Shown here in pieces: positions 21,217 through 33,596 of a stretch of DNA of 64,000 bases (positions within the stretch are counted from its first letter, which is position 1; every line of letters starts with the position of its first letter). The stretch comes from Haloprofundus salinisoli (GTDB taxonomy: Archaea; Halobacteriota; Halobacteria; Halobacteriales; Haloferacaceae). The stretch is taken from NCBI RefSeq assembly GCF_020097815.1, contig NZ_CP083663.1, positions 1,922,001 to 1,986,000 of the forward strand, given 5' to 3'. The notes below the pieces were generated by a model. That model was given only the letters and a program-made list of their open reading frames with translations, was not told where the DNA came from and searched no databases. The translations under genes were made by a program, and so were the position numbers.

Positions 21217-23481
21217 TCAGTCGTCCGACCGTGACCCCAACCCGAACAACCGCTCCCGCAGCGACCGTTCGCTCGGGCGCTCGGCGAGCAACACCGAACA
21301 CTCCACCTCGTCGACGATGTCGTAAACGAGCGACCCCGTCAGCAACCGCGAGAGCAGACCGCGTTCCGTCGCGCCGATGATAACCATCGACATCTCCGCG
21401 GAGTGGCGGCCGATTGCGCCCTCGACGTCGCCGGAGGCGTCGACGCGAATCTCGGCGTCGTCGAGGTCGCGCTCTGCGGCCCACTCGCGGAGGAACGCCT
21501 CGCCCGCTTCACGCTCGTCCTCGCCGTTGACGACGTAGAGCAGCGACACCTCCGACCCCCGGTCGAGGAGGACGCGCGCGACCTCCGCGCTGAGGTCGGA
21601 GTCCGCTCCGCCCGCCGTCGGCACGAGCACCTTCGAGGGGTCGAACCCCTCGTCTTTCAGGACGAGGAAGTCACAGGGGAGATTTCCGGTGAGTTCGTCG
21701 AGCGTCCCCTCGACGCGGCCGGCCGACCAGAACGGCGAGCCGCCCCAACCCATCACGACGAGGTCCGCGCGGTGGTCGCGGGCGGCGTCGAACACCTCTT
21801 CGACGGAGCGGTGCGAGACGATGGTCCGCGTCTCGACCGGTGCGCCGAACGTCTCGGCGCTCTCACGGGCGGCCGCCAGCAGCTTCGAGGACTCGGCGTC
21901 TATCTGCCGGATGCGTTCGGCACCGGCCGACAGCGGCACTTGGTCGGGCACGGTGACGACGTGGACCGCCTCGACCGTTCCACCGCGCGCCGTCGCCATC
22001 AGACTCGCCAACTCGATGAGATGCTTCTCGGTGCGGGGGTTGGCGAGCGGGACCATGACGCGGTACTGGCCACCGTCGGGTTGGACGGTACTGGCGGCGG
22101 AGACGGCGGCGTCAGGCATCGTCTCGGAGCGAGAGAGAACGTACTGGCTGAGGAGCCCCCCCGTCTCGACTTTCTCGCGCGCGTAGACGAAGTACCAGAC
22201 GACCGCGCCGACGACGAACACCGCCGACAGCGCGATTTCGATGTCGTCCATGAACGCGACGAGACCGAGCGACAACAGCGCCCCGGCAATCGGCGTCACC
22301 GGGTAGAACGGCACGCGGAACTCGGGTTCGTAGTCGATCGCTTCGGATTCGCGGAAGACGATGAGTGCGACGTTCATCAGCGTGTAGACGATGAGGTGCA
22401 GCACGCTCGCCGCCTTCGCCAGCACCGCGAGGTCCTGACCCAAAGCCGAGATGAAGACGATGATGATGAGTCCCGTCACCAGAATCGAGCGGTACGGCGT
22501 CGCGAACCGCGGGTGAATCTCGTTGAGCCAGTTCGTGACGATTTTCTCGCGACCCATCGCGAAGTTGATGCGTGCCGACGCGAGAATGGAGGCGTTCGCC
22601 GACGACGCCGTCGCCAACAGCGCCCCGAGCGTCATCACCGTCGCCGCCACACCGGCGATACCGCCGGGGAACGCGACTTCCGCCGCCTGTGCGACCGGCG
22701 CGTCTTGGCTCAGCTCCGGCCACGGGACGACGCCCAGCATCACCGTCACGAGAATAGCGTAGACGACGGTGACGAGCGCGACGCTCCCGATGATGGCGAT
22801 AGGGAGGTTTCGTCCGGGATTCTTCAGTTCCTCGGCGACGGTTGCGATCTTTGCGTACCCGAGGAACGAGACGAACACCAACGCGGTTCCCGGAAGGATC
22901 GCCCCGAAGCCGAACGGGGCGAGACCGTCCTCACCGGCGAGCGTCGCGTAGTCGAACGAACTCCACCCCGCGACGGCGAACACGCCGAGAATCGCCAACA
23001 GGATGAGCACGATGACCGTCTGGACCCCGCCGGTCTCCTTGGCGCCGATGTAGTTGACGCCGACGAAGACGAATCCGGCGAGTAGCGCGCCAACCTGTAT
23101 CGGCGAGAGAAACAGCACGCCGGGAAGGCCGACGAGCTCGGCGAGATACTGCCCGAAGCCGATACAGTAGAACGCCGACGCGAACGCGAGGCCGACCCAG
23201 TCGCCGAGACCGGCGATGGAGCCGAACAGCGGACCAAGCGCGCGGTTGACGTAGTAGTAGCCGCCACCGGCTTTCGGCATCGCCGTGCCGAGTTCCGACA
23301 CCGACAGCGCGTTCACCATGGCGATGAGGCCGCCGACGACGAAGGAGACGACGACGATGGGGCCGGCCTCCTGGGCGGCGACGCCCGGCAGTACGAAGAT
23401 ACCCGCACCGATCATCGTCCCGATGCCGATGGTCATCGCCGACAGCAATCCCAGGTCCTTCGCTAACTCCTCCTCAGCCAT
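21217..23481 (-). CDS. APC-family amino acid permease with C-terminal universal stress domains
   Basis: 754 residues. The first 440 hold 12 hydrophobic segments of the APC superfamily, with GIGTMIGAGIFVLPG in helix 1 (substrate site) and SFLGYAKIATVAEELKNPGRNLP in the middle. The last 290 form two universal-stress-protein domains; the first starts near YRVMVPLANPRTEKH and the second ends near EVECSVLLAERPS. USP domains in transporters are thought to bind nucleotide or regulate the transporter. It lies in the same direction as the deoC-regulator pair upstream but 277 bases away, with its own TATA-like elements, and downstream of an Lrp/TrkA_C protein that could regulate it. Confidence 0.92.
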   Translation of the reverse strand: MAEEELAKDLGLLSAMTIGIGTMIGAGIFVLPGVAAQEAGPIVVVSFVVGGLIAMVNALSVSELGTAMPKAGGGYYYVNRALGPLFGSIAGLGDWVGLAFASAFYCIGFGQYLAELVGLPGVLFLSPIQVGALLAGFVFVGVNYIGAKETGGVQTVIVLILLAILGVFAVAGWSSFDYATLAGEDGLAPFGFGAILPGTALVFVSFLGYAKIATVAEELKNPGRNLPIAIIGSVALVTVVYAILVTVMLGVVPWPELSQDAPVAQAAEVAFPGGIAGVAATVMTLGALLATASSANASILASARINFAMGREKIVTNWLNEIHPRFATPYRSILVTGLIIIVFISALGQDLAVLAKAASVLHLIVYTLMNVALIVFRESEAIDYEPEFRVPFYPVTPIAGALLSLGLVAFMDDIEIALSAVFVVGAVVWYFVYAREKVETGGLLSQYVLSRSETMPDAAVSAASTVQPDGGQYRVMVPLANPRTEKHLIELASLMATARGGTVEAVHVVTVPDQVPLSAGAERIRQIDAESSKLLAAARESAETFGAPVETRTIVSHRSVEEVFDAARDHRADLVVMGWGGSPFWSAGRVEGTLDELTGNLPCDFLVLKDEGFDPSKVLVPTAGGADSDLSAEVARVLLDRGSEVSLLYVVNGEDEREAGEAFLREWAAERDLDDAEIRVDASGDVEGAIGRHSAEMSMVIIGATERGLLSRLLTGSLVYDIVDEVECSVLLAERPSERSLRERLFGLGSRSDD

Positions 23482-23758: not shown

Positions 23759-24511
23759 CTACTCCGTATTTCGAAGCGCAGCGAGTGTCTCGTCGGGGAC
23801 GTCACCGCGCGAAAACAGCGTCACCTCGTCACCGGCGCGGAGGACAGTATCGCCTCGCGGCGTCACGACGGTGTCGCCGCGGTCGACGGAGATGACGAGC
23901 GTGTTTCCGCTCAGGAGGCCGCGTTCGCCCGCCTCCGAGAGCGTCAACCCGTCGATTGGTGCGCCCTCGCCGATAGTCGCCTCGACGATTTCGGAGCCAC
24001 CGGTGAGGCTGACGAAGTCCGAGAGCGTTCCCCGGCGCTCGTCGCCTTCGGGTTCGTACGCAGCGTACGGGAGGTACGTATCCGCCTGCACGAGGTCCTC
24101 GTCTTCGATCTCGATGCCGAGACTGGAGAGCGCTCGCGCGACGCGCCGCAGGTCGGCGATGTCCTCGCCGACCGCGAGCACGTGGAGGTTCCGGCGACCG
24201 GTCATCAGTTCCCGGACGTGGACGACGCCCGGGACGGTTCGGACCCTCGCGGCGATGGACTCCCGTTCGGCGACGGGCGCGTTACAGAGATAGAGGTTCG
24301 TCAGTCGTCCGTCGGCCCGCTCGAAGTCGACGTGCGCGTGGTATCCTTTGATGATGCCCGCGTCCTCCAACCGGGCGATTCGATTACGTATCGTCCCGGC
24401 TGAGACGCCCAGCCCCTCGGCGATGGCGGGCGCGGAGGTGTTCCGCGCGTCCGCCATCAGCGCGTGGATGACGCGACGGTCGACCTCGTCGAGTTGGAAC
24501 GCTCCCTCCAT
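23759..24511 (-). CDS. Lrp/AsnC regulator fused to a TrkA_C-like domain (Trh type)
   Basis: 250 residues. The N-terminal winged helix (about residues 1-55, LDEVDRRVIHALMADARNTSAPAIAEGLGVSAGTIRNRI) is AsnC type and is followed by an Lrp-like ligand-binding region. The last 80 residues (VEATIGEGAPIDGLTL to EVTLFSRGD) are a TrkA_C/RCK_C domain. Haloarchaeal proteins of this fusion are known as the Trh family of transcription regulators. The gene follows deoC by two bases and is probably co-transcribed with it. Confidence 0.9.
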   Translation of the reverse strand: MEGAFQLDEVDRRVIHALMADARNTSAPAIAEGLGVSAGTIRNRIARLEDAGIIKGYHAHVDFERADGRLTNLYLCNAPVAERESIAARVRTVPGVVHVRELMTGRRNLHVLAVGEDIADLRRVARALSSLGIEIEDEDLVQADTYLPYAAYEPEGDERRGTLSDFVSLTGGSEIVEATIGEGAPIDGLTLSEAGERGLLSGNTLVISVDRGDTVVTPRGDTVLRAGDEVTLFSRGDVPDETLAALRNTE

Positions 24512-29504: not shown

Positions 29505-29587
29505 GAGCGCCGACTGCTCGACCGGGTGGTGACGCGCGTCGGTAACCTCTTTCGCCGCATCCGTCGGATCGAGCGCCGCGAACTCGC

Positions 29588-29770
29588 GTCGCCCGCCCGG
29601 AGGTCGAATCGCTTATCAGCGCCAACGCCCGGGCGTACGACCCCGTTATCATCGGCTCCAGCGGCGACCGAAGCGCCGCCTCGCGCTTTCTCTCCCCGCC
29701 GACGTTCGAGCGACTCGAATCGCCGGACTGTGACCTCGCAGTCGTCGACCGCGGACCTCACCTGACCGGG
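29588..29770 (+). pseudogene. truncated universal stress protein domain (C-terminal fragment)
   Basis: A plus-strand frame starting in mid-domain reads VESLISANARAYDPVIIGSS, then RSAASRFLSPPTFERLESP, then CDLAVVDRGPHLTG, the typical C-terminal half of a universal stress protein domain (I.xN..xYDxVIIGSS, RFLSPPTFERL, CDxAVVDRG). No start codon is present in this frame, which has a stop at 29543 upstream, so the N-terminal half is missing. A different-frame ORF over the same bases has no USP character. It lies between a nucleoside phosphorylase and a potassium channel gene, neither of which is fused to it. Confidence 0.7.
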
Positions 29771-29795
29771 CTCAGGAGAGGGCTGCCCCGCCGTC

Positions 29796-30971
29796 TCAGC
29801 GCTCCAACGAGCGGTCGCGGAGCAGTCGTTCCGCGACGTCTTCGATGCCTTGTCCACCGAGGGCCGACGCCGCCAGCAGGTGACCGCCGAGCGCCGCGGG
29901 GCTGATGACTGTGTTCGCACCCGCTCGTTTCAGTTTCTGGACGTTGCCCCGGAGCGTCGCGGCGGCGATGATGGGGACCTCGGGGTTCAACTGCCGCGCA
30001 GTGAGAATCGAGAGCGCGTCCTGCGCGTCGTCGTTGGTGGCGACGACGACGGCGCGGGCATCCTCGACGCGGGCACGCCTCTGCGGGTCGTCGTCGCTCG
30101 GGTCGGCAGTGAGCACGTGAATGCCGCGGTCGGTCAGTTCCTGGGCGCGATCGCTGTCGCGGGTGACGACGAGGTACTCTGCCTCGTCGCGCAGTTCTTC
30201 GAGAATCGGTTCGGTCAGGTCCCCGTAGCCGAGGACGAGGATGTGGTCTTCCAAGAGCGAGAGCTGTGTGTCTGTCATGCGTCCGAGTGTTTTGGCGAGT
30301 CGAGCCTCGATGGCCGGCGTCAGGAGCGTCCCGAGGGCGACGGCGAAACTCGCCGTCCCGGTGAGAAGCACCGACATAGCGAACAGTTTCCCCGCTTGGC
30401 TGGCCGGCGTCACGTCGCCGTAACCGACGGTGCTGGCGGTGACGAGCGTGAAGTAGAACGCGTCGACGACGGTGTCGACGGTTCCGAACTCGTCGCGCAG
30501 CACGTACGTACCGACCGTGCCGTACACTTGCGCGAGGCCGATGGCTGCCAGCGCCGCCTGCTGAGTCGCGGTGAGTTCGGCGTGCTCTCTGAAGTGCCGG
30601 TGGTTCAACGAGACGACGAACAACGCCAGAATAGAGAGCACTACCAGCGGATACGCGAGCGGACTCGACTGAAGCAGTCCCTGTGCGGCCGACAACGGCA
30701 GTAGTAGCATCGCCGCGTACCAGCCGAGCCGAAAGCCGCGGCGGAGCGCGTAGACGCTCGCCAACAGCAGAAAGCCGGTAAACGCCCCGGTGAACCCGGC
30801 GGTTTGCTGGACGAACGGCGGAACGTACGCGGCGAGCGGACCGGTGACGCTCGGGACGTCGAGGCCGGGAATGCCGAATCCGGCGACGCCGGTGATAATC
30901 GACAGCATCGCCGCCGCGGACGCCAGTCCGACGGCGAGCCGCGGCCCGACCAGTTTCCGGTTCACCTCCAT
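29796..30971 (-). CDS. potassium channel with cytoplasmic RCK (TrkA_N) domain
   Basis: 391 residues. The first 125 contain about four hydrophobic segments, then a pore region with selectivity filter TVGYGDV (residues 181-187) between two further helices. The cytoplasmic part begins HILVLGYGDLTEPILEEL, an RCK/TrkA_N Rossmann domain with the GYGDLT loop of the nucleotide-binding GxGxxG type, and extends to the end (SALGGQGIEDVAERLL). It is expected to form a tetrameric K+ channel gated by ligand or nucleotide. The two divergent genes beyond it encode membrane proteins with TrkA_C-like ends and probably act with it. Confidence 0.9.
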   Translation of the reverse strand: MEVNRKLVGPRLAVGLASAAAMLSIITGVAGFGIPGLDVPSVTGPLAAYVPPFVQQTAGFTGAFTGFLLLASVYALRRGFRLGWYAAMLLLPLSAAQGLLQSSPLAYPLVVLSILALFVVSLNHRHFREHAELTATQQAALAAIGLAQVYGTVGTYVLRDEFGTVDTVVDAFYFTLVTASTVGYGDVTPASQAGKLFAMSVLLTGTASFAVALGTLLTPAIEARLAKTLGRMTDTQLSLLEDHILVLGYGDLTEPILEELRDEAEYLVVTRDSDRAQELTDRGIHVLTADPSDDDPQRRARVEDARAVVVATNDDAQDALSILTARQLNPEVPIIAAATLRGNVQKLKRAGANTVISPAALGGHLLAASALGGQGIEDVAERLLRDRSLER

Positions 30972-30996
30972 ACCTCCGGGTTCGGCGACAGCGACA

Positions 30997-31003
30997 CATA
31001 AAT
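30997..31003 (-). promoter_or_regulatory. TATA-like box for the K+ channel gene
   Basis: On the minus strand ATTTATG is centred about 29 bases before the ATG at 30971. It lies 105 bases from the divergent promoter at 31108. Confidence 0.5.
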
Positions 31004-31107
31004 TCGTCCGAAGTCCGCCCGCGGCCCTCGTCGGACCTCCGGGTGACCGTCCGAATCGGCGGGTCGTCCGGGTCGCCCGAGACGACGTCCTCCGGGTTCG
31101 GTAGACG

Positions 31108-31113
31108 TTTATT
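31108..31113 (+). promoter_or_regulatory. TATA-like box for the twin TrkA_C operon
   Basis: TTTATT is centred about 25 bases before the ATG at 31135, compatible with a leaderless two-gene transcript. Confidence 0.5.
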
Positions 31114-31134
31114 CGGTCCGCCTGTGGCGACGCT

Positions 31135-32376
31135 ATGGTGCAGTCGATACCGGTCGAGATTCTGCGAGGCCTCTACCTCGGCGTCCTCACGGGTATCATC
31201 CCCGCGCTCGTCTCCGCTGGGCTCGGCTTCGTCTTCAAGTACTTCACCGGCGTCTCCATCCCCGGGTTCGGTGTCGTCGTGTTCGCGCTGGCCATCGCGG
31301 GAGCCAACGGCGGCCTGTTGGCGCTCGGCGACGCCAGTCTCACCGACGGACAACACGGCGTCGCGCTCACCGTCGCCATCCTCGTCGTGCTGATGCTGTC
31401 GCTGTACGCGCACGCACAGGGCGACAAACTCGGCGGCACGCTCCCGAAGCGAATCACCTTCAAGTCGCTCCGCGAGCGGACGCTCTCGGGTGAGGTGGTC
31501 GAACTCGTCGGCGGCCGGCGTCGGGTGACGGTGACCGTCGCCGGCGAGGTCGACGACATCGAAGGGTATCCACCGCTTCCTCCGGCGCTCCGCACGGAGC
31601 TGCGAGAGGGCGAGTGGGAGTTCCCGGCAGACGTCCCGCTTTCGGAACTGGAAACTCGACTCGCCGAACGACTTCGGACCGACTACGGCCTCGCGGAGGC
31701 CACAGTGTCGCTCGACGAACGGGCCCGCGCGACGCTCGCGGCTGCCCCGCCGGTCGGCAGCCTCTCGAAGCGCCTCTCGCCGGGCCAGCGCGCCGTCTCC
31801 GTCGAGACGCTCGTCCCGACGGGCGTCGCCCGCGGGGAGTCGGTGACGCTCCGGACGGCCGACCGGAGCGTCGACGGAACGGTCGTCGCGGTGAGAGCCG
31901 CTGAACCGACGGCGTCGAGTTCGCCGACGCCCGACACCGACGACGACGCCGAATCCGACGAGAGCGAGGACGAGGAGAAACCGACGGTCGCCCCCGCGGC
32001 CCCCGTCGCCGCCGGCGGCGAGGGTCGCCTGACGGTCGCCGTCGACCGGCCCGGCGCGGAGGCGTTGCTGTCGGCTGACGCGCCGCAGGTGGTCGTTCGC
32101 TCGCGCGGGACCCGCCGCGAGTTCGAGTTGACGAGGCTGCTGCGCCAGGCGGGTCGGCGCGTCCAGCGACTGTCGATTCGCGCCGACAGCGCGCTCGACG
32201 GAACGACGCTCGGCGACGCGAGCGTCCGCGACGCCTACGACGTGGCCGTCCTCGCGGTTCGCCGCGACCGCTGGCGGTTCGCCCCGCGCGGCGACACTCG
32301 ACTGGCGGCGGGCGACGAGCTGTTCGTCGTCGGCTCGCCCGCCGCGCTGGCGTCGCTCGAGGAGGTGGTCGCGTGA
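31135..32376 (+). CDS. membrane protein with C-terminal TrkA_C-like domain, first of a pair
   Basis: 413 residues. Three hydrophobic segments lie within the first 95 residues (VEILRGLYLGVLTGIIPALVS, FGVVVFALAIAGANG, GVALTVAILVVLMLSLY). A cytoplasmic region (100-250) follows with a beta-rich GEVVELVGGRRRVTVTVAGE module, then a highly acidic Asp-Glu-Ser linker (about 255-290). The end (about 325-413) is a TrkA_C/RCK_C-like domain: LRQAGRRVQRLSIRADSALDGTTL, then LAAGDELFVVGSP. It has no pore signature, so it is not itself a channel by sequence. A regulatory partner of the divergent K+ channel is plausible. Confidence 0.8.
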   Translation: MVQSIPVEILRGLYLGVLTGIIPALVSAGLGFVFKYFTGVSIPGFGVVVFALAIAGANGGLLALGDASLTDGQHGVALTVAILVVLMLSLYAHAQGDKLGGTLPKRITFKSLRERTLSGEVVELVGGRRRVTVTVAGEVDDIEGYPPLPPALRTELREGEWEFPADVPLSELETRLAERLRTDYGLAEATVSLDERARATLAAAPPVGSLSKRLSPGQRAVSVETLVPTGVARGESVTLRTADRSVDGTVVAVRAAEPTASSSPTPDTDDDAESDESEDEEKPTVAPAAPVAAGGEGRLTVAVDRPGAEALLSADAPQVVVRSRGTRREFELTRLLRQAGRRVQRLSIRADSALDGTTLGDASVRDAYDVAVLAVRRDRWRFAPRGDTRLAAGDELFVVGSPAALASLEEVVA

Positions 32377-33596
32377 GAGGAGATCTCTCGGCGGTCGACG
32401 CGTTCGTCTGGCTGCAGACGGGGACGCCGAACGAACCGCTCGGTACCGAAACCGGCTTGCTCGGCGACGCGTTCTACATTCTCGGCCTCGCGTTCGCCGC
32501 CGCCGCCGTCGCCGCCGTCGGGGTGTTCGGCTACCGCTGGTACTTCCGAGAGCGCCCGCCTCGGGGCCTCACCGTCCTGCTCGGCCTCTCGGCGGTCGTC
32601 CTCTACCTCAACACGGCCAAACTGAGCGACTTCGCCGCCGGCGGCAACGGCAGTGACGACCTGTTTCTGGTCGGTAACGTGCTGTTCAACCTCGGCGCGC
32701 TCGCGGCCGCTACGGTGGCGGCACCCGTCGGCGCGCAACTCGGCGATGCGCTCGCGGCGAACACGGCCGCGTTTTCGGGCGTCCGCGAACTCGAAGGCGA
32801 GGTCGGCCGGGTCGTCCGCTCCGTCGGCCGCGTCATCTCCGTGACGCTGCCCGAAGACATCGAGGATATGGACGAGTACGACCCGGTCGCCGACGCGACG
32901 AAGGAGTCGCTCGCCGGCAAGACGCTGTTGTTCCCCCGGCGACTCACCGTCGCGGAACTCCGCGAGCGGCTCGTCGCCCGCCTCCGCGAGGATTACGGCG
33001 TCGGCCACGTCGACGTCGACCTCACGCAGGACGGCGAGGTCGAGTATCTCGCCGTCGGCAGTCGCCTCGCCGGCATCGGACCGACGCTCGCGCCCGGCGG
33101 CGTCGCCGTCGCGGTCCGCGGCGACCCCTCGTTCGAGGCAAGTCCCGGCGACACGGTGCAGGTGTGGCACGCCGCCGCCGACGGCCCGACGCGGGTGCTC
33201 ACCGGCGAACTCCGCGCGACGACCGACGAGGTGGCGACGCTCGCCGTCGACGAGGCGGACGTCGGCCGCCTCGACGTGGCACAGTCGTACCGCCTCGTCA
33301 CCCTCCCGGTCGACCCCGGCGTCGAACGGCAGTTCGCGGCGCTGCTTCGGACCGCCGAGGAGACGATGGGCGTCGTCTCCGTTGCCGAGACCGACTCCGG
33401 CACGCACGCGACGGTCGGCGACCTCGCCACGACGGTCGTCGCCGTCCGACCGCAGAGCGGCCCGGTAGAGGCGATACCGTCGCGTTCGCGGCGGTTGTCC
33501 GCGGGCGACACGCTGTACGTCATCGCGCGCCCGGACGAGCTCCGCCGCCTCGAACGGACCGTCGGAACGGCCGCGGGCACCGCGAGCGACGACTGA
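32373..33596 (+). CDS. membrane protein with C-terminal TrkA_C-like domain, second of a pair
   Basis: 407 residues with a GTG start that overlaps the TGA of the previous gene by four bases. It has an N-terminal hydrophobic segment, then one or two further membrane spans (about 25-50, 70-115), an acidic hinge (EDIEDMDEYDPVADATKES), a beta-rich cytoplasmic half and a final TrkA_C-like domain ending in LSAGDTLYVIARPDELRRLE. Its layout matches its neighbour, although similarity between the two is low, so they are likely ancient paralogues forming a complex. No known family name applies with certainty. Confidence 0.8.
   Translation: MRGDLSAVDAFVWLQTGTPNEPLGTETGLLGDAFYILGLAFAAAAVAAVGVFGYRWYFRERPPRGLTVLLGLSAVVLYLNTAKLSDFAAGGNGSDDLFLVGNVLFNLGALAAATVAAPVGAQLGDALAANTAAFSGVRELEGEVGRVVRSVGRVISVTLPEDIEDMDEYDPVADATKESLAGKTLLFPRRLTVAELRERLVARLREDYGVGHVDVDLTQDGEVEYLAVGSRLAGIGPTLAPGGVAVAVRGDPSFEASPGDTVQVWHAAADGPTRVLTGELRATTDEVATLAVDEADVGRLDVAQSYRLVTLPVDPGVERQFAALLRTAEETMGVVSVAETDSGTHATVGDLATTVVAVRPQSGPVEAIPSRSRRLSAGDTLYVIARPDELRRLERTVGTAAGTASDD

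Follow-up and report, generated by a model that had tools for sequence, protein, structure and literature searches.

Paralogous membrane RCK_C proteins encoded as a conserved pair, in most loci beside a Kch-like potassium channel gene, in Halobacteria

The window analysed here is a 64,000-nucleotide stretch of Haloprofundus salinisoli (contig NZ_CP083663.1, positions 1,922,001 to 1,986,000; assembly GCF_020097815.1). Between positions 29,796 and 33,596 it carries a divergent locus, with a potassium (K+) channel gene on the minus strand facing two overlapping genes on the plus strand, whose products are called proteins A and B below. The three open reading frames, originally predicted from the letters alone, were confirmed by translation. 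The features of the locus are as follows (positions are those of the window).

29796..30971, minus: channel gene, Kch-like K+ channel of 391 amino acids (Pfam, NCBIfam, PDB sequence match to MthK, C-tail comparison)
29898..30242, minus: RCK_N (TrkA_N) domain of the channel, residues 244-358 (Pfam PF02254, E = 8e-28)
30411..30431, minus: selectivity filter TVGYGDV, residues 181-187 (translation)
30997..31002, minus: TATA-like box of the channel, about 26 nucleotides (nt) from its start codon (sequence; kept in five genomes of the genus)
31108..31113, plus: TATA-like box of the A-B unit, TTTATT, at about 21 nt from A's ATG (sequence; kept in the genus)
31135..32376, plus: gene of protein A, 413 amino acids, membrane RCK_C protein of the HVO_2617 family (Pfam, AlphaFold2 and the account of that family in PMC5992828)
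31147..31440, plus: membrane helices of A, residues 5-102, including its most conserved part (AlphaFold2; conservation profile)
31486..32097, plus: alpha/beta region and beta-barrel of A, residues about 118-321, no solved relative found (AlphaFold2, Foldseek)
31900..32016, plus: acidic disordered linker of A, residues about 256-294, variable (pLDDT, the predicted local distance difference test; conservation; occupancy)
32158..32370, plus: RCK_C of A, residues 342-412, canonical (Pfam, E = 1.5e-16; PDB profile match to KtrA/KtrC/KhtT/MthK; Foldseek)
32373..33596, plus: gene of protein B, 407 amino acids, GTG start, overlapping A by 4 bases, paralog of A
32457..32777, plus: membrane helices of B, residues 29-135, weakly conserved (AlphaFold2; conservation)
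32823..33305, plus: alpha/beta region and beta-barrel of B, residues 151-311, its most conserved part (AlphaFold2; conservation)
33363..33563, plus: RCK_C of B, residues 331-397, its helix alpha1 shortened by 6 residues (Foldseek, Pfam, ortholog comparison)

The two divergent TATA-like boxes lie about 105 bases apart, as had been proposed for the promoters, and both are retained in four further genomes of the genus. Across relatives, the positions of TATA-like elements peaked at 20-39 nt upstream of both A and the channel, and no such element was found within 160 nt upstream of B. The predicted two-gene unit with its 4-base overlap was present here and in 54 of 71 loci, a count that leans slightly towards this overlap since start codons were picked nearest to the window's own. 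Because of the overlap and the lack of a TATA-like element upstream of B, B is very probably translated from the message of A. The channel is very probably transcribed divergently, from its own promoter.

The channel consists of N-terminal hydrophobic helices, a pore and an RCK_N domain, and it ends shortly after RCK_N. Besides TrkA_N, Pfam matched Ion_trans_2 (E = 1.8e-15). No TrkA_C/RCK_C domain was found in the channel, and all the orthologs examined end in a short variable tail after RCK_N. A K+ channel with this filter and an RCK domain had been predicted, and it was found, with RCK_N alone as its RCK part. A K+ filter followed by RCK_N without RCK_C is the Kch-like arrangement. The nearest solved structure by sequence was MthK, and the closest NCBIfam model was that of Kch, PRK10537 (NF007828). 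As the channel scored 175 bits, far under the cut-off of 425, it was not filed as a PRK10537 equivalog. In some families, a stand-alone RCK_N-like gene directly adjoins the same channel (L070 5241-6848, L071 6051-7669, L248 3687-5411, L245 and L246); these genomes have A-B elsewhere or lack it.

A and B are full-length paralogs, with 28% pairwise identity and a profile-profile probability of 99.9% over 348 columns. AlphaFold2, given alignments of 72 rows, modelled both chains from the same parts: three long membrane helices at the N-terminus, an alpha/beta region and a beta-barrel in the middle, and RCK_C at the C-terminus (mean pLDDT 83.5 for A and 85.0 for B). Because the predicted template modelling scores were low (0.39 and 0.38), the domains in these models are reliable but their mutual arrangement is not. 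When the models were compared with the PDB by Foldseek, only the RCK_C part of each was matched (MthK, KhtT and PH0236). Neither RCK_N (TrkA_N) nor a pore was found by Pfam in A or B, either in the window proteins or in their orthologs. Thus, the proposed combination of membrane helices and an RCK_C-like end, without pore or RCK_N, holds for both proteins. Their middle part was also considered as an RCK_N or as the N-terminal domain of KhtT; Pfam, PDB sequence and fold comparisons all gave no support. Weak matches to RcpC/CpaB (25 of 72 A proteins) and to the SMUBP-2 1B barrel (20 of 72 B proteins) were read as generic beta-barrel similarity.

The TrkA_C match (PF02080) of A reached 60.5 bits, compared with a cut-off of 27, and was present in 71 of 72 orthologs. 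Conservation was highest in membrane residues 11-60 of A (about 3.5 bits), compared with 3.0 bits in the middle and 2.6 bits in RCK_C, and the membrane segment has several invariant Gly and Pro residues, unlike that of B. As its conservation exceeds that of the rest of A, the segment is likely to be more than a mere anchor. Such conservation is expected for a part that touches a membrane partner. The acidic linker had been suggested to be a salt-responsive tether. No other part of A is so poorly conserved or so variable; its occupancy is low and its pLDDT is below 50 at residues 259-286. The suggestion is therefore not supported, and the idea of a conserved tether was rejected.

In B of this species, the TrkA_C match remained under the curated cut-off (19.7 bits, E = 8e-4). 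It was nevertheless found in 68 of 72 B orthologs at E values up to 0.5 (best 2e-10). The RCK_C fold is supported for both proteins, by Pfam, PDB profile and Foldseek in A and by Foldseek and the orthologs in B. Counted from a conserved Thr to an Ala of the following strand, the spacing is 16 residues in 69 of the 72 A proteins and 10 in every one of the 72 B proteins. B is therefore short of most of helix alpha1, and this shortening by 6 residues was seen in all 72 B orthologs. In BusR, helix alpha1 lines the cleft for cyclic di-AMP (c-di-AMP) (PMC8517857). Conservation in B was 2.3 bits in the membrane part, 2.9 in the middle and 2.4 in RCK_C. At one locus (L052 6706-7070, genome G048), an internal deletion has apparently fused the first 47-63 or so residues of A to the C-terminal end of B, with the channel intact.

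We searched 99 genomes of relatives, counting A and B at E ≤ 0.001. A was found in 88 of them, with some matches to RCK_C only, and B in 77. In a sample of the phylum comprising 296 genomes, A was seen at full length in the same order only; the matches listed elsewhere were to the RCK_C end. The best 80 loci in a search of genome contigs were all haloarchaeal by title. As far as found, full-length A and the pair are restricted to Halobacteria. In each of the 82 primary pair loci A and B stood side by side, and one locus had a duplicated A. They seem to be an obligate co-transcribed pair. The suggestion of a heteromeric pair is in line with this adjacency, the single promoter and the paralogy, and it is from these genetic features that we infer a heteromer of A and B.

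The channel lies within 800 bp of the pair in 61 of the 82 primary loci, divergent in 59 and co-directional in two. A pair without the channel in most genomes, which would have spoken against the original prediction, was thus not what we found. In many genomes the block is completed by an HPP-family membrane protein and a uridine phosphorylase. The HPP-family protein, which in relatives usually stands between uridine phosphorylase and the channel, is missing in the species of the window (29505-29795).

Several gene contexts pointed to potassium. The co-directional channel-A-B arrangement, with 46 bp from the channel to A, was found in two related genomes of one genus, so the link of channel and pair appears to have survived an inversion. 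In family f14 (genomes G072 and G086), KhtT immediately precedes A, and KhtU immediately precedes either the channel or a second antiporter gene. In genome G080 (family f6), KhtU-KhtT and the gene of a TrkA_N/TrkA_C protein run convergently towards the pair, at a distance of 11 bp. Among the loci searched, KhtTU adjoined the pair only in f14 and G080; another f14 genome (G096) has KhtT, KhtU and the channel and no pair. One genome (G068) has a PF03458 gene after B, a family that includes trimeric cation channels. In addition, the channel and the pair are complementary (RCK_N versus RCK_C), because all channel orthologs examined lack RCK_C. The potassium theme is supported by the co-directional arrangement, by the proximity of KhtTU to the pair in two families and by this complementarity.

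We therefore propose, tentatively and with somewhat less than even confidence, that the pair senses a cytoplasmic ion or nucleotide and tunes K+ flux, usually via the adjacent Kch-like channel. A and B would form a membrane-anchored RCK_C module. The canonical RCK_C of A would be the likely ligand-sensing end, and the shortened RCK_C of B, which has probably lost the ligand-cleft helix, might serve as the partner half. Besides the channel with its RCK_N and no RCK_C, the K+/H+ antiporter KhtTU may also be a target in some lineages. A stricter version is a split RCK system, in which the RCK_N of the channel and the RCK_C of A-B would act in trans and a canonical/degenerate heteromeric module would gate the channel; we consider it unlikely.

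A number of observations weigh against a channel-centred role of the pair. The gene of SAMP1 adjoins the pair in 58 of the 82 primary loci, compared with 61 for the channel. As the functionally unrelated SAMP1 is linked about as tightly, coupling to the channel is not provable from gene order alone, and after this count the conservation of gene order was dropped as proof. In five genomes (G018 and G041; G014, G039 and G057), SAMP1 stayed with the pair and uridine phosphorylase with the channel. The split also goes the other way: in G070 and G095, channel and pair are together and SAMP1 is absent from the locus. The channel was kept and the pair lost or broken in 13 genomes, including G048, G066 and G096. 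Conversely, two genomes of family f15 (G073 and G087, 76-78% complete) have the pair, and no channel ortholog was detected in them. Seven loci in several genomes (L120-L125 and L049) carry second, divergent A-B pairs without the channel. These are mostly surrounded by MinD/ParA-like ATPases (one with DUF7125), DUF7857, a HerA-like ATPase, DUF7310, DUF7311 and a pilin-like DUF7382 protein, a setting that disfavours a dedicated channel regulator. Thus, the three-gene order does recur among haloarchaea, but SAMP1 is about as frequent a neighbour and channel and pair are separable; regulation of the neighbouring channel by the pair is no more than plausible.

In several lineages the pair lies well away from the channel, and in the channel tree the relocated channels fall within the haloarchaeal channel family and are not obvious replacements. 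Since nearly all Halobacteria have the channel, its presence was uninformative as a phylogenetic profile. At L054 (G066) the whole locus is decaying: A is lost, B is fragmentary and the channel is interrupted by a stop.

It is possible, though we doubt it rather more than the proposal above, that the pair serves in the membrane as a sensor or scaffold of a general kind, not bound to K+, and that it inherited its adjacency to the channel as part of a conserved block (uridine phosphorylase, HPP, channel, A, B and SAMP1). SAMP1, HPP and uridine phosphorylase persist as neighbours to a similar extent, the separation of channel and pair in both directions fits well, and so does a second pair embedded among ATPases and haloarchaeal DUF proteins. 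However, such a sensor would not account for the repeated association with K+ genes, and the known functions of RCK_C are mostly in K+ or osmolyte control (PMC8517857). Considering both sides, the pair probably helps control potassium without being tied to this single channel. A-B might instead be a transporter or channel itself, with the Gly/Pro-rich membrane segment of A as the permeation part and RCK_C as the gate. The membrane segment is indeed the most conserved part of A. This idea is nonetheless improbable, considering that no convincing pore or transporter family match was found by Pfam for A or B, orthologs included, that each chain has just three helices and that the membrane part had no fold match in Foldseek.

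Cyclic-nucleotide sensing had been suggested for the pair, and we examined A as a haloarchaeal c-di-AMP receptor that would link this messenger to K+ export. A diadenylate cyclase domain is encoded in the genome. In Haloferax volcanii, c-di-AMP is essential and tied to osmoregulation, with unknown targets (PMC6741144). The RCK_C of A aligned best with those of KtrA, PH0236, KtrC and KhtT, and its hydrophobic pocket positions are kept, but the polar rim seen in BusR (PMC8517857) is not. The c-di-AMP signature of RCK_C domains, (I/L)(I/L)X2DX1RX5N(I/L)(I/L) (PMC10117811), was found in none of the 72 A proteins; its Asp was present in 11 and its Asn in one. This absence is not decisive, because KhtT of PDB 7AGV, solved with c-di-AMP, likewise departs from the signature. 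We regard c-di-AMP as the ligand of A as a long shot, with cyclic-nucleotide sensing at best a possibility. That the pair senses some cytoplasmic ligand and controls K+ flux is what we infer from its domains and contexts.

Haloarchaea have to control K+ that they keep at molar levels, and little is known of either their K+ sensors or their c-di-AMP targets. With its near-universal but class-restricted occurrence and a member in Haloferax volcanii, HVO_2617, the pair offers a concrete candidate that is open to genetics. If true, the combination of an RCK_C pair anchored in the membrane, one half of it degenerate, with a neighbouring channel without RCK_C would be a novel design for an RCK regulator.

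HVO_2617 belongs to conserved composite family 1329 (Genome Biol 2018, PMC5992828), described there as a three-pass unknown domain joined to TrkA, widespread in haloarchaea and with a proposed role in K+ uptake. A shares the three-pass N-terminus and C-terminal TrkA domain, and it fits the family by architecture and length (AlphaFold2, Pfam and its haloarchaeal range), the HVO_2617 sequence itself not having been aligned. The passages on this family in that paper do not include the partner B, the obligate pairing, the channel/KhtTU context or the degenerate RCK_C of B. In the open-licence literature searched, we found no description of B, of the A-B pairing or of a channel link, and nothing on HVO_2614-2616 or HVO_2618. 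KhtT/CpeA, the cytosolic regulator of KhtU-type K+/H+ antiporters, has an RCK_C like that of A and is an occasional gene neighbour. It is a soluble two-domain protein partnered with KhtU, and its N-terminal domain is small and of a different kind. A and B, with three membrane helices each and an extended alpha/beta and barrel part, do not belong to the KhtT class. Trh2 (Lrp/AsnC + TrkA_C) and BusR (GntR + RCK_C) resemble A and B in using RCK_C as an add-on sensor on another type of effector, but they are DNA-binding regulators and not membrane proteins. A Trh2-like regulator gene (cf. PMC4236453), encoding an Lrp/AsnC-type helix-turn-helix and TrkA_C, is present in the window at 23759-24466 (minus strand), about 5 kb from the channel, and adjoins the gene of an APC permease (21217-23481) whose C-terminus is UspA-like. 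The Kch-type channel (PRK10537) has a pore and a single RCK_N without RCK_C, like the window channel, for which the model score was far under the cut-off. The RCK rings of MthK, KtrA and TrkA have the RCK_C fold at the C-terminus, as A and B do, but carry RCK_N in the same chain. Here the channel has RCK_N and A and B have RCK_C, so the two proteins fall outside the full-ring class. The pairing and the degeneracy of B apparently represent an undescribed variant of RCK regulators, with K+ control as the probable function.

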